Position numbers and translations under genes: made by a program
Origin: Pseudonocardia sp. CNS-139
GTDB taxonomy: Bacteria; Actinomycetota; Actinomycetes; Mycobacteriales; Pseudonocardiaceae
NCBI GenBank assembly: GCA_001942415.1
Contig: MKJX01000228.1
Span: 1 to 64,000, forward strand
Length of the DNA stretch: 64,000 nt
Reading direction: 5' to 3'
Notes under the pieces: generated by a model
Seen by the model: the letters and a program-made list of their open reading frames with translations, nothing else
Database searches by the model: none
What the model was told of the DNA's origin: nothing
Part shown: piece after piece, positions 18,883 through 56,434 of the stretch
Layout of the letters: the number at the start of each line of letters is the position of its first letter
Position numbering within the stretch: the first letter of the stretch is position 1

Positions 18883-20059
18883 GAGCCCATGGTCGCCAGC
18901 AGGGCGTCGATCTCAGAGGGTGTGTACCCGACCTCACCCAGGACGGTGCGCGTGTCGGCCCCGAGCAGCGGGCCTGCGCCGCCGCGGCGGACGGGGGTGC
19001 CGGACAGCCGCATCGGCGAGCCCAGCTGGCGGACGGGCCCGAGATCCGGGTGGTCGGCGTCCCAGAAGTAGCCGCGTTCGGTCAGGTGGGGGTCGGTGAA
19101 GACCTGCCCGAAGTCGTTGATCGGCGCGCACGGCACGCCGTGCTCCTCCAGTGCGGCGACGACGTCGGCGGCGGCCCGCCCGCGGGTGACGGCCTCGATC
19201 GCGGCGACGAGCTCGGCGCGGTGCGCGTGCCGGGTGGACGGGCCGGCGTAGCGCGGGTCGGCGGGCAGGTCGCCGAGGCCGAGCGCGGCGCACAGCCCGT
19301 CCCAGGTGCGCGGGGTGATCGCGCCGAGCGTCACGAACCCGTCGGCGCAGCGCACGGCCTGGTAGGGCGCCTGCGCCTGGTGCGCGGTGCCGAGCGGACG
19401 CCCGACCTCGCCGGTCGCGAAGTACCGGCCCGCCTCCCAGACGGCGAGCGACACCCCCGACTCCAGCAGCGACACGTCCACGGACTGGCCCCGCCCGTCG
19501 CGGTCGTGGGCCCGCAGCGCGGCGGTCACGGCGAGGGCGGTGTAGAGGCCGGCGACGAGGTCGCAGATCGGCACGCCGACCTTCGCCGGGTCGCCGTCGG
19601 GGCTGCCGGTGATGCTCATGAGGCCGGAGCGGGCCTGAGCCATGATGTCCAGCCCGGGCAGCGCCGCGAGCGGCCCGTCCTGCCCGAACCCGGAGGCCGA
19701 CGCGTACACGAGCTGCGGGTTGCGCCGCTGCAACGCGTACGGGCCGAGCCCGAGGCGGGTCATCGCGCCCGGGCGCAGGTTCTCCACCAGCGCGTCGGCT
19801 CCATCGGCGAGCCGCAGGAACGCGGCGCGGCCGGCGTCGGTCTTGAGGTCGAGCGCCACCGACTCCTTGTTGCGGTTGAGCCGGGCGAACGGCGAGCTGT
19901 GCCCGTCGAGGAACGGGCCGGTGGCGCGGGTCGGGTCGGGCGCGGCCGGGTTCTCGACCTTGATCACCCGCGCGCCGAGGTCGCGAGCTGCATGGTGGCG
20001 AACGGCGCCGCCATGAACACGCCGACCTCGAGCACGGTGAGGCCGGTGAGCGGGGGCAT
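18879..20059 (-). CDS. CaiB/BaiF family (class III) CoA-transferase
   Basis: 393 aa with one G restored near 19985 (LADLGARVIKVENP region). N-terminal GLTVLEVGVFMAAPFATMQL; then NRNKESVALDLKTDAGR, VENLRPGAMTRLGLG, SGFGQDGPLAALPGLDIMAQA, GQSVDVSLLESGVSL. These are standard for the interlocked-dimer CoA-transferases, whose catalytic Asp lies in the GxD motif (PGLD). C-terminal GVPCAPINDFGQVFTDPHL and GADTRTVLGEVGYTPSEIDAL. Expected to transfer CoA between a donor and an organic acid, here probably the dicarboxylate imported by the adjacent MatC-like carrier. The start ATG 20059 lies 3 nt past the carrier stop. Confidence 0.88.
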
Positions 20060-21641: not shown

Positions 21642-22814
21642 GTGGCGCACACGACCGGAGGCCGGCACTTCCTGCAGATCCCGGGGCCGACGAACGTGCG
21701 GACCGGGTGCTGCGGGCGATGTCCGCACCCACGATCGACCACCGGGGACCCGATTTCGTCGAGCTGACGCGAACGGTGCTCGCCGCGCTCGGCCCGGTGT
21801 TCGGCACCACCGGGCCCGTTGTCGTCTACCCGTCGTCCGGCACGGGCGCGTGGGAGGCGGCGCTGGTCAACACGCTGAGCCCGGGCGACCGCGTGCTCAT
21901 CGGCGAGACCGGGCAGTTCTCGACGCTCTGGGCCGAGCTGGCCGGGCGGATCGGGCTGCAGGTCGACGTCATCCCCGGCGACTGGCGCCGCGGCGTGGAC
22001 CCCGACGCCGTCGCGCAGCGGCTCGCCACCGACACCGGCCACACGATCAAGGCCGTGTGCGTGGTGCACAACGAGACGTCCACCGGCGTCACGAGCCGGG
22101 TGCCGAGGTCCGGGCGGCGCTCGACGCGGCCAGGCACCCCGCGCTGCTGCTCGTCGACACGATCTCGTCGCTGGCCTCGATCGAGTACCGGCACGACGCG
22201 TGGGGCGTCGACGTCACGGTCGCGGGTCGCAGAAGGGCCTGATGCTCCCGCCGGGCCTGGGTTTCAACGCCGTGAGCGCGAAGGCGCTGGCCGCGTCCCG
22301 GGACGCCCGGCTGCCGCGGGCCTACTGGGACTGGGCGCCGGTGCTGGCCGCCAACGGGGGCGGCTCGTTCCCGTACACGCCGGCGACGAACCTGCTCTAC
22401 GGGCTGCGCGAGGCGTGCGCGATGCTCGCCGAGGAGGGTCTGACGAACGTCTTCGCGCGCCACCAGCGGCACGCCGCGGCCACCCGCGCGGCCGTCCGGG
22501 CGTGGGGGCTGGAGGTGCTCTGCGCGGACGAGCGCGAGCACTCCGGGTCGCTGACGGCCGTGCTGCTGCCTGACGGGCACGACGCCGACGGCGTGCGCCG
22601 GATCGTGCTGGAGAAGTTCGACATGTCGCTGGGCACCGGGCTCGGGCGCCTCGCCGGGAAGGTGTTCCGCATCGGGCACCTCGGCCACTTCAACGACCTG
22701 ACGCTCGCGGGCACGCTGGCCGGCGTGCAGATGGGGCTGCAGCTGGCCGGGGTGCCGGTGAAGCCGGGCGGGGTGGAGGCGGCGCTCGACGTGCTGCGCG
22801 AGGCGGCGGCGTGA
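21642..22814 (+). CDS. Class V aminotransferase, alanine/serine-glyoxylate type
   Basis: About 391 aa after restoring single bases near 21697, 22103 and 22229; the frame steps down by one each time, ending in phase. N-terminal HFLQIPGPTNV is the hallmark of alanine- and serine-glyoxylate aminotransferases. Then VVYPSSGTGAWEAALVN, RVLIGETGQFSTLWA, VVHNETSTGV, LLLVDTISSLAS (PLP-binding Asp) and SQKGLMLPPG with the Schiff-base Lys. C-terminal KVFRIGHLGHFNDLTLAGTLAGVQMGL is also diagnostic. Start GTG 21642. The stop overlaps the next gene by 4 nt. Glyoxylate or a related 2-oxo acid is the probable acceptor. Confidence 0.88.
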
Positions 22815-25741
22815 GCGACCTCGCCGCCGCCCTGCGCCGGGAGATCGAGGGCGAGGTCCTCGACGACGACTACAGCCGCCACCTCTTCTCCCGCGACGCC
22901 AGCATGTACGCGATCACCCCGCGGGGTGTGGTCGCGCCGCGGCACGCCGGGGACGTCGTGGCGGCCGTGCGGGTCGCGGCCGAGCACGGCGCGGCGGTGC
23001 TCCCCCGCGGCGCCGGCACGAGCCTCGCCGGGCAGACCGTCGGCGACGCGCTGGTGCTCGACCTCTCCCGGCACATGAGCGCGATCCTCGACCTCGACCC
23101 GGAGGCGCGCACCGCGCGCGTCCAGCCCGGGGTGGTGCAGGACCAGCTCAACCGGGCGGCCGGGGCGCACGGCTGATGTTCGGGCCGGACACGTCCACGT
23201 CCAACCGGGCGACGCTCGGCGGCATGATCGGCAACAACTCGGCCGGCAGCGGCTCGGTGCGCTACGGGATGACGATCGACCACGTCCGGGCGCTGGAGGT
23301 CGTGCTCTCCGACGCGTCAACGGCCCGTTTCGCACCGGTCGACGAGGCGGAACGGGCCCGGCGGGCCGGCGGCGGCTCGCTGGAGGCGCGCCTGTACCGG
23401 GAGCTGCCCGCGCTGGTGGCCCGCAACCGCGACGCGATCGCGCGCGGCTTCCCCACGATGTGGCGCCGGGCGGGCGGCTACCGGCTCGACCGGCTCGCCT
23501 CCGACGGGCCGTTCGACCTCTCGACGTTCGTCGTCGGCTCGGAGGGGACGCTCGTCGTCGCGACGGAGGCCGAGGTCGGGCTCGTGCCCAAGCCCGCGGT
23601 CACCGTGATCGCGGTGGGGCACTTCCGCTCGACGCAGGCCGCGATCGCGGCCACCGAGGACGCGCTGTCGTGCGACCCGGCCGCCGTCGAGCTGATGGAC
23701 CGCACGATCCTCGACCTCTCCCGGCAGAAGATCGAGTACGCCGCGCTCGGCACGATCCTGCACGACGACCCGGACGCGCTGCTCTTCGTCTCGTTCAGCG
23801 GGGAGGACCGCGCGGAGCTGACCGCGCAGCTCGACCGGCTCGTCGCGCTGTGGGAGAAGCACGGGCACGGCTACCACACGCTGCGCGCCGAGACGCCGGC
23901 CCAGCAGGGCGCGCTGCTCAAGGTGCGCAAGTCCGGGCTGGGGCTGCTCATGGCCGCGAGCACCGGGTCGAACCGGCCGCTCGCGTTCGTCGAGGACACG
24001 GCCGTCGACCCGCTGCGGCTGGCCGAGTACACGGAGCGGTTCGCGAAGGTGCTGGACCGGCACGGGATGCGGGCCGGGTTCTACGGCCACTGCTCGGTGG
24101 GCTGCCTGCACATCCGCCCGTTCGTCGACCTCTCCCGGCCGGACGAGGTCGTGCGGATGCGGGCGGTCGCGGAGGAGATCCGCGACCTCGTCGCCGAGTT
24201 CGGCGGCGCCAACTCGTCCGAGCACGGCGACGGGCTCGCGCGTTCGGAGTTCAACCGGCAGCTCTTCGGCGACGCCCTGTACGAGGCGATGCGCGAGGTC
24301 AAGGCGCTGTTCGACCCGGACGGCCGGCTCAACCCCGGCAAGATCGTCGACGCGCCGGCGATGACCGAGCACCTGCGCGAGCCCGCGCTGCCCCCGGCCG
24401 GCCCGCTCACCACTGCACTCGACCTCACCGTGCTGTCCGGCGGCGAGCACGGGATGCGCGGCGCGGCGGACCGCTGCCAGAACATCGGCCTGTGCCGCAA
24501 GACCGACGCCGGGGTGATGTGCCCGTCGTACCAGGCCACCCGGCGCGAGGAGGACTCCACCCGCGGCCGGGCGAACGCGCTGGTCAAGGCCCTGTCGACG
24601 GCGGACCCGAAGGCCGCGCTCGCGGACGGGCGGCTGCACGAGGTGCTCGACCTGTGCCTCATGTGCAAGGCGTGCAAGAGCGAGTGCCGCTGTCGGTGGA
24701 CATGGCGACCCTCAAGTCCGAGGCGCTGCACCACAAGCACGAGACGTCCGGCGTGCCGCTGCGGTCACGGGTGTTCGCCGGCATCCGCACGCTCAACCGG
24801 CTCGGCTCGGCGACGGCGCCGCTCTCGAACCTCCCCGGCCGCGTCCGGGCGGGCCGCCGGCTGCTGGGGCTGGCCCCGGAGCGCCCGCTCCCGGCGTTCA
24901 CCCGGGCGACCCTCCCGAGGTGGTTCCGCAGTCGCGACCGCGGCCGCGGGTTGCAGCAAAGCCACCCTGACGCCGCCACGTTGCATGAGGGTGGCTTTGC
25001 TGCAACGGGGACGGGGAGCCGGGGCACGCTCACCTTCCTCGCCGACTCGTTCACCAGCTTCACCGAGCCCGCCGTCGGCATCGCGGCCGTCGAGCTGCTG
25101 GAGCGGGCCGGGTGGGAGGTTCGGCTGGAGGCGGGCGGCTGCTGCGGGCGGGCGGCGTTCTCGAAGGGCCTGCTCGACCAGGCGGAACAGCAGCGACCGG
25201 GCTGGTCGACGCGCTGGCCGGGACGTCCGGGCCGATCGTCGGCGTCGAGCCGTCCTGCCTGCTGACGCTGCGCGACGAGCACCGCGCCCTGCTCGGCGCG
25301 GACGACACGCGGGTCACCGACGTGGCCGGGCGGGCCCGGCTGGTCGACGAGCTGCTCGTCGAGGCGATCGACGACGGCAGCCTGCCGCTGAGCGCCGATG
25401 CCTGGCCGGCCGGGCACCGGATCCTCTTCCACGGCCACTGCCACCAGAAGGCCGAGGTGGGCACGGCCGCGACCGTCGCGCTGCTGAAGCGCATCCCCGG
25501 CGCCGAGGTCGTCGAGGTGGACGCCGGGTGCTGCGGGATGGCCGGGTCGTTCGGGTTCGAGGCCGAGCACTACGCCGTGTCGATGCAGGTGGGCGAGGAC
25601 CGGCTGTTCCCCGCCGTGCGCGCAGAGCCGGCCGGCACGGTCGTGGCCGCGACCGGGGTGTCGTGCCGCCAGCAGATCGCGCACGGCACCGAGCGGCGCG
25701 CGCACCACCCCGTGGAGCTGATCCGCGCGGCGCTCGCGTAG
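22811..25741 (+). CDS. FAD-linked oxidase fused to Fe-S/CCG domains (D-lactate/glycolate dehydrogenase type)
   Basis: About 977 aa after restoring three single bases (near 23170, 24690, 25190). Residues 1-450: PCMH-type FAD domain (LPRGAGTSLAGQTVGDALVLDLS, TLGGMIGNNSAGSGSVRYG) and C-terminal substrate cap (YGHCSVGCLHIRPF, EHGDGLARSEFN). Residues 550-620: two 4Fe-4S clusters (CQNIGLCRK, CPSYQATRREEDSTRGRAN, CLMCKACKSEC). Residues about 750-970: two CCG domains (GGCCGRAAFSKGLLDQ; FHGHCHQKAE; DAGCCGMAGSFGFE). The order fits membrane-associated quinone-linked 2-hydroxyacid dehydrogenases. The linker before the CCG part (about residue 715) contains a 57-bp palindromic element read in frame. Coupled to the aminotransferase by a 4-nt overlap. 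Confidence 0.88.
24950..25006 (+). repeat. 57-bp palindromic element, in frame within a coding gene (copy A)
   Basis: Arms GTTGCAGCAAAGCCACCCT and its exact reverse complement (19 bp) enclose a 19-nt core. Copy B at 42440-42496 has the same arms and the same 57-bp length. The element adds exactly 19 codons (LQQSHPDAAT...) to the variable linker of the FAD/Fe-S dehydrogenase with no stop and no frame change. Confidence 0.85.
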
Positions 25742-25743
25742 GC

Positions 25744-25860
25744 GCGACTCGCGCGCACGAATCCAGCGACTCGCGCGCACTTTCGCAGCGACTCGCGGGC
25801 CGTTCCGCGAGTCGCGGGAATAGTGCGCGCGAGTCGGGGTCTGGGTGCACGCGAGTCGCG
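25744..25860. repeat. Intergenic palindromic repeat cluster, locus 1
   Basis: Units of GCGACTCGCGCGCAC occur forward at 25744 and again after AATCCA, then inverted (GTGCGCGCGAGTCG) near 25824, with further CGCGAGTCGCGGG variants. It fills the gap between the converging dehydrogenase and asparaginase genes. The same units recur at 56323-56401. It can fold into large hairpins and may serve as terminator. Confidence 0.75.
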
Positions 25861-42439: not shown

Positions 42440-42496
42440 GTTGCAGCAAAGCCACCCTCACGCCACGTGGCTGCATGAGGGTGGCTTTGCTGCAAC
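42440..42496 (-). repeat. 57-bp palindromic element (copy B)
   Basis: The same 57-bp length and the same 19-bp arms as copy A at 24950-25006; here pairing extends to 21 bp (GTTGCAGCAAAGCCACCCTC plus A). The core CGCCACGTGGCTGCA itself contains GCCACGTGGC. It begins 15 nt past the fadJ stop (42512) and ends 46 nt before the ABC ATPase start, so it may act as terminator for the fad operon. Confidence 0.85.
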
Positions 42497-56322: not shown

Positions 56323-56401
56323 GCGACTCGCGCGCACTTTTCCAGCGACTCGCGCACAGACCCGCGAGTCGCTGGATTCGTGCGCGCGAGTCGCTGGATT
56401 C
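56323..56401. repeat. Intergenic palindromic repeat cluster, locus 2
   Basis: GCGACTCGCGCGCAC (forward), AGCGACTCGCGCAC, then inverted CGCGAGTCGCTGGATTCG twice with GTGCGCGCGAGTCG between. The units are the same as at 25744-25860. It lies between the two permease genes of the metal importer; it may form a hairpin that lowers expression of permease 2. Confidence 0.75.
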
Positions 56402-56434
56402 GGGTGGGCGAGTTGCTGATGGGAGGGGTGGAGC

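Follow-up and report, generated by a model that had tools for sequence, protein, structure and literature searches.

A 57-bp palindrome repeated behind stop codons of Pseudonocardia sp. CNS-139, with in-frame copies in three protein genes

The draft genome of Pseudonocardia sp. CNS-139 (G000; 7.1 Mb in 250 contigs, 78.5% complete) holds at least 62 full copies of a 57-bp palindromic element, with both arms in the same register throughout: 59 of the 62 were not called in genes (for some of these, at contig ends, only one neighboring gene is visible), and three lie within coding sequence, with a same-frame coding signal on both sides. We consider this element to be, most likely, a dispersed palindrome similar to REPs and Rickettsia palindromic elements (RPEs) that acts mainly as a hairpin at mRNA 3′ ends, has presumably been moved by some means, and can be accommodated by flexible linkers in proteins. 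The first-pass annotation had described two copies and proposed a search for others; these exist in number. In the literature searched, we found no description of such palindromes in Pseudonocardia.

Within the window, i.e., the whole stretch of 64,000 nucleotides that was analyzed, both of those copies are real, each 57 bp long with perfect 19-bp arms: one at 24950–25006, whose + strand with its edge codons reads GLQQSHPDAATLHEGGFAAT, and one at 42440–42496. The former consists of a left arm, GTTGCAGCAAAGCCACCCT (24950–24968, + strand), a variable 19-bp core (24969–24987), and a right arm (24988–25006, − strand) that is the reverse complement of the left. Allowing up to three mismatches, the arm has four matches in the window, all exact, and none in 100 window shuffles; together with 97 exact matches of the 16-mer arm across the genome (reversed control, 0), this rules out a chance palindrome. 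The second copy occupies a gap flanked by two − strand genes, 15 bp past the stop codon of the upstream gene. Folded as RNA, the copy at 24950–25006 reaches −46.7 kcal/mol (z −4.95) and the copy at 42440–42496 a z of −9.5 on the − strand and −8.4 on the + strand, so that z ranges from −5 to −9.5 over both.

The copy at 24950–25006 lies in a + strand coding block called as one stretch (21707–25741, with several frameshifts in the draft), the second part of which, from about 22811, is by orthologue alignment a dehydrogenase with FAD-oxidase, 4Fe-4S, and CCG parts. An open frame of 728 codons (23079–25262) passes through the element, which confirms that it is read in frame, and codon use is coding-like in the 60 codons on each side. 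Frameshifts occur in the draft gene near 23170, 24684, and 25193, and the insert lies in the intact stretch between the latter two. Pfam returned no match for the window ORF 23079–25262, and the gene is identified through its orthologues; that of P. acaciae (L163) carries FAD_binding_4, FAD-oxidase_C, Fer4_8, and CCG. A sequence search for PDB relatives of the C-terminal part gave none. By our gene model, apparent within-gene frameshifts are numerous across 18000–59000, some of them plain gene junctions, and their frequency across the window suggests that the draft contains indel errors and that the genes are not decaying; such errors may depress the measured completeness.

Genome-wide, a search for paired arms returned 61 palindromes, and 65 sites were fetched, window included: 62 full elements and three with one arm only. 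These come from 72 raw fuzzy matches, i.e., 62 full copies, four arm-only rows (L073 twice, L075, and L087), and six chance matches; four of the full copies are short of their first or last base at a contig end, and the copy at C172:61034 is outside the set. All 62 sequences, as extracted, differ from one another, yet the arms barely vary while the core drifts: columns 5–9, 12–14, and 16–18 are invariant in 62/62 copies, columns 3, 4, 10, 11, and 15 have one deviating copy each, the right arm is equally constant, and core columns 19–39 vary around the invariant G23, C24, G34, and C35. Judged by this alignment, the much greater conservation of the arms suggests selection on a recognized sequence and not on an RNA hairpin alone, which counts against the reading we favor.

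Two column pairs of the core are seldom complementary. The pair 22/36 (24971/24985 in the window) reads C-A in 32 copies, T-G in 24, T-A in 5, and C-G in 1, giving 6 Watson–Crick pairs where 30.7 are expected from partner shuffling; for 25/33 the figures are 11 and 29.5, and for either pair 0/5000 shuffles were as low. Weaker deficits were seen at 27/31 (24 vs 32.6 expected) and 19/39 (35 vs 40.6). Asymmetry at 22/36 is only loosely coupled to that at 25/33 (26 copies concordant, 17 discordant), and neither is tied to transcription direction; an RNA-strand preference for U-G at 22/36 was rejected, as the co-directional copies hold 10 CA, 9 TG, 1 CG, and 1 TA.

Next to genes, the element has a marked preference for the space behind stop codons. 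Using gene calls from a simple codon-usage model that allows frameshifts, applied to a frameshift-rich draft, we classified 53 intergenic copies (one of them arm-only): 29 have convergent flanking genes, 22 co-directional ones, and 2 divergent ones, while the remaining fetched sites are at contig ends (7) or called in genes (5). Background gaps in five related genome regions (n = 1,075) comprise 177 convergent and 359 divergent ones, so that the copies are enriched in the former (Fisher p = 9e-10) and depleted in the latter (p = 5e-7); the window's own two-sided gaps (n = 56) include 12 of each. Measured from the stop codon, copies have a median distance of 13 bp on the left side and 15 bp on the right; where the flanking genes are co-directional, 18 of 21 copies are closer to the upstream stop. 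The same bias is seen for palindromes of repeat families in the five other genome regions: 42 of the 76 intergenic ones are convergent (p = 2e-13), and the model placed 10 of 86 in genes, a count that may include miscalls. A spread mainly through genes is not borne out, with three of 62 full copies inside them.

Rickettsia is the best-known source of in-frame palindromes in proteins, and the first-pass annotation's comparison with the elements of that genus proved apt. Beside the dehydrogenase in the window, in-gene copies occur in CobN (L074; 1,084 bits to CobN/Mg-chelatase) and in L065, a paralogous FAD-oxidase/Fer4/CCG dehydrogenase, where the linker is the same and the reading frame differs. 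Of the arm-only sites, L073 is in frame with a rhodanese domain, possibly upstream of the true start, and L075 is in frame with CbiA and GATase_3 domains; L073, L075, and L087 have the form GCAGCAAAGCCACCCTGCTGC and resemble a shorter one-arm hairpin. The proposal that a length divisible by three lets the element spread fails, because its in-frame relatives within genes measure 44, 53, and 55 bp: 57 bp, or 19 codons, is unnecessary, and the net frame at coding sites is preserved by the flanks. In a structure model of the orthologue from strain MH-G8, the insert (residues 183–201) runs from the end of a helix into coil ahead of a strand and is mostly low-confidence coil (pLDDT about 61–64).

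Comparison with orthologues supports an insertion into a variable linker, as the first reading had supposed. The linker region finds a match at E 1e-3 in 57 of the 62 genus genomes, 26 of them close (E below 1e-20), and in orthologues that carry no palindrome the linker is short and the extra residues are missing: their matches end near query residue 84 and restart near 106, or are gapped there. In a wider set, where the linker was measured in 70 of 80 loci, 57 of the 70 are 13–19 residues long and a palindrome score above 12 was reached only in Pseudonocardia. Six of 26 dehydrogenase loci, our own included, carry a strong palindrome; 20 fall below the cut. What fills the linker differs between strains: an GTTCAGGAAAGCCAC...GTGGCTTTCCTGAAC element in G011 (strain MH-G8), G034, and G016, an GCCAGGAAAGCCACTTT... 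element in G050, two GTCAGCAAAGCCACTTT units in G049, and a GTTCCTGAAC remnant in G022, while P. eucalypti has GCGAGTCGGC repeats with no long palindrome and P. acaciae has CCGTGAGTGGTAAGCGG..., which is unrelated in sequence and comes from a family that numbers 17 palindromes over 400 kb of the P. acaciae genome. On a tree built from the rest of the dehydrogenase (25 sequences, some deeper nodes poorly supported), occupied and empty sites are interleaved, and G004, the sister of G011 (support 0.97), has an empty linker.

The same holds for CobN, which has a match in 60 of the 62 genus genomes: among the best 30 loci of those 60 genomes, our own included, 15 carry a strong palindrome, compared with 5 random coding windows out of 600. 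One linker accounts for thirteen of the 15, drawn from several families, and a second for two; in G027 (L340) and G003 (L342), this second, downstream linker holds other in-frame palindromes. For the paralogous dehydrogenase, counted likewise over the best 30 loci, 4 have a strong palindrome and 26 are below the cut. Other Pseudonocardia species carry other families, partly unrelated, in frame at the dehydrogenase and CobN linkers. We found no description, in the literature searched, of unrelated palindrome families being exchanged at common coding linkers across a genus.

The sequence is not widely shared. None of the other 99 genomes compared contains the exact 16-mer arm, and none of the other 61 genomes of the genus contains paired arms; elsewhere in the phylum, 6 of 395 genomes each yielded a single match, in every case with a different core and spacing, and a scan of public genomes, which may omit G000 itself, gave none. 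The arm core CAGSAAAGCCAC is abundant (at least 15 matches on a strand) in 19 of the 62 genus genomes and absent from 20. Its counts on the two strands, 496/491 in G050, 137/138 in G018, and 115/117 in G016, reflect an expansion of the family there.

Turnover can be followed site by site among relatives of G034, to which DNA identity over 400-kb regions is about 88% for G022 and G049 and about 82% for G011. We made 162 comparisons of palindrome sites, 86 of which were not alignable; they are directed, so that one site may count twice, and rows involving four chance coding sequences were removed by hand. The 76 alignable comparisons found the same family in 27 cases, a broken member in 14, another listed family in 11, another palindrome in 2, an empty site in 10, and neither a palindrome nor an empty gap in 12; these last 12 count against the reading we favor. 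At one site, F1 in G034 and G049 corresponds to F7 in G022 and F6 in G011.

Of the target-site duplications that the first-pass annotation proposed to look for, and that would mark a MITE moved by a DDE transposase, none of 4 bp or more (4–10 bp, exact) occurs in 56 flank pairs, so that transposition is only presumed. Shorter duplications are close to shuffled values at 3 bp (4 vs 3.9) and slightly in excess at 2 bp (12 vs 8.9) and 1 bp (24 vs 18.1), which makes a target duplication of 1–2 bp possible. Stems of individual copies did not continue into their flanks more than in shuffles, the flanks being merely C-rich on the left and G-rich on the right. The Y1 (RAYT) transposase (PF01797/Y1_Tnp) is absent from the 78.5%-complete G000, where a gene in the missing part is possible, and was found in 5 of the 62 genus genomes, unrelated to copy number; RAYT as the mover is thus not supported.

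As an RNA, the hairpin has no U-tract. Three or more U within 8 nt past the hairpin occur in 1 of 56 copies on the + strand and 0 of 56 on the − strand, and terminator scans of two window stretches were empty, so that an intrinsic terminator with a U-tract is not supported; Rfam gave no hit at the gathering threshold in window positions 20000–60000. Structured 3′ ends of this kind have a precedent: for Streptomyces clavuligerus, the part of PMC8269248 drawn on here counts 353 structured 3′ ends without a U-tract against 182 with one, and discusses the former as I-shaped terminators or as trimmed Rho-dependent ends. Most likely, the element acts as an mRNA 3′-end hairpin without a U-tract.

Pseudonocardia genomes harbor several palindrome families, some unrelated in sequence, whose usual place is directly past a stop codon. 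There, we propose, the very stable hairpin of the transcript would most likely mark and protect the mRNA 3′ end, after Rho-dependent or U-less termination and exonuclease trimming back to the hairpin, and a copy between convergent genes could serve both strands. Copies would be gained, lost, and swapped for other families at the same addresses, in whichever direction each change ran. The copy at 24950 would be a passenger in a flexible linker, its inserted peptide presumably neutral: because the hairpin has no U-tract, it need not halt transcription inside a gene, and because it is also open in several frames, such an insertion should be survivable as long as the net frame is kept.

Among known repeats, the element is best placed as a REP/RPE-like dispersed palindrome without the GTAG/CGTC tag and without the size and gene preference of RPEs. 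It shows the broad traits of REPs (palindromic, near-identical arms, many copies, mostly extragenic near 3′ ends), and the tag appears near either end as GTAG in 1, CTAC in 1, CGTC in 9, and GACG in 6 of 56 copies. REPIN and IS200/IS605-type MITEs are short palindromes with imperfect stems that are spread in trans; the element resembles them in being a short palindrome with an imperfect stem and differs in that G000 has no Y1 transposase. According to the portion of PMC3733652 consulted, REPs measure 20–40 bp and are found chiefly in convergent and co-directional gaps, in many cases no more than 20 bp from a 3′ end; genes host some of them, also in species other than Rickettsia, and CGTC REPs lack a known transposase. 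By that partial account, the element shares with REPs its multi-copy palindromes, gene-orientation bias, 3′-end proximity, and occasional location in genes, but is 57 bp long, has different families at one coding address in relatives, and comes from an assembly without RAYT. RPEs, as excerpted from PMC10969869, are about 150 bp long with nearly half in ORFs; the likeness is that several palindromic families are in frame in unrelated protein genes, the difference that the element is 57 bp, has three of 62 full copies in ORFs, and lies chiefly behind stop codons. In the pneumococcus, the extract of PMC3049150 describes SPRITE, BOX, and RUP as hairpin repeats enriched between convergent genes, and SPRITE as being near 3′ ends, with a U-rich tail, and suggested to be co-opted as terminators. 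Both SPRITE and our element are hairpins near 3′ ends, although the U-rich tail is SPRITE's alone; the likeness is one of description from that extract.

Several other explanations can be weighed against the dispersed 3′-end hairpin. The palindromes could be old insertions, one ancestral palindrome per address, homogenized within each genome by gene conversion or selection. The 27 of 76 orthologous sites with the same family and the 14 with broken members fit such concerted evolution, as does the way F1 varies by species while keeping its arm core AAAGCCAC and a 37-nt arm-to-arm step (G048, G049, and G000). We nevertheless regard it as unlikely: unrelated families at one address (F1 vs F2, F4, F6, and F7, and the CCGTGAGTGG in the P. 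acaciae dehydrogenase) are hard to derive by conversion from a single ancestor, the tree mixes empty sites with occupied ones, and cores remain diverse. Ordinary intrinsic terminators that share sequence by chance would account for stable hairpins at medians of 13 and 15 bp past stops, often in convergent gaps. The missing U-tract, a stem that is invariant rather than compensating, and in-frame copies within genes make this decidedly unlikely, while a terminator of the U-less kind is possible given the U-less structured 3′ ends of Streptomyces in the consulted part of PMC8269248.

Were the arms instead binding sites for a sequence-specific DNA protein, e.g., one involved in nucleoid or chromosome organization, and under selection as such, their near-invariance in 62 copies with a drifting core would be expected, and so would the avoidance of pairing at 22/36 and 25/33 whatever the gene direction. 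We hold this to be improbable, since it leaves unexplained both the 13–15 bp post-stop position and the swapping of families at one address, and since arms differ among species. Least credible to us is a coding-specific function, in which a hairpin in the CobN or dehydrogenase mRNA is selected, e.g., to pause the ribosome at a domain boundary, and any palindrome suffices. Palindromes of several families at linkers in 15 of the 30 best-matching CobN loci speak for it; the lack of a strong palindrome in 15/30 CobN, 20/26 dehydrogenase, and 26/30 paralogue loci indicates that a coding hairpin is not essential there.

A bolder reading, which we consider doubtful, is that palindrome addresses are fixed, i.e., behind stops and at the CobN and FAD/Fe-S dehydrogenase linkers, and that unrelated families repeatedly replace each other there, in frame where the site is coding. 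If so, there would be an unrecognized mechanism of hairpin exchange or homing guided by a hairpin, already present or extruded, and not by a target sequence, and coding linkers would be durable sockets for exchangeable palindromes. REP-decorated genes do occur elsewhere than in Rickettsia, as the portion of PMC3733652 used here reports; here, an actinobacterial genus has in-frame palindromes at linkers common to several species, filled by differing families and accompanied by many post-stop copies. These sites offer natural replicates for studying the movement of palindromes for which no transposase is known, their possible role in defining mRNA 3′ ends in high-G+C bacteria, and the ways in which proteins accommodate parasitic peptides.

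Two minor observations concern the genome at large. Contigs C16, C48, C185, C190, C235, and C238 of G000 start or end at one copy or a few bases from it, as if the palindrome had broken the assembly there. Finally, a second palindromic family (GCGACTCGCG...) is present in the window at 25743–25860, directly past the dehydrogenase stop, and at 56323–56416 in another gap; its GCGACTCGCGSG has 129/131 matches in G000, against 10/5 for the reversed control.
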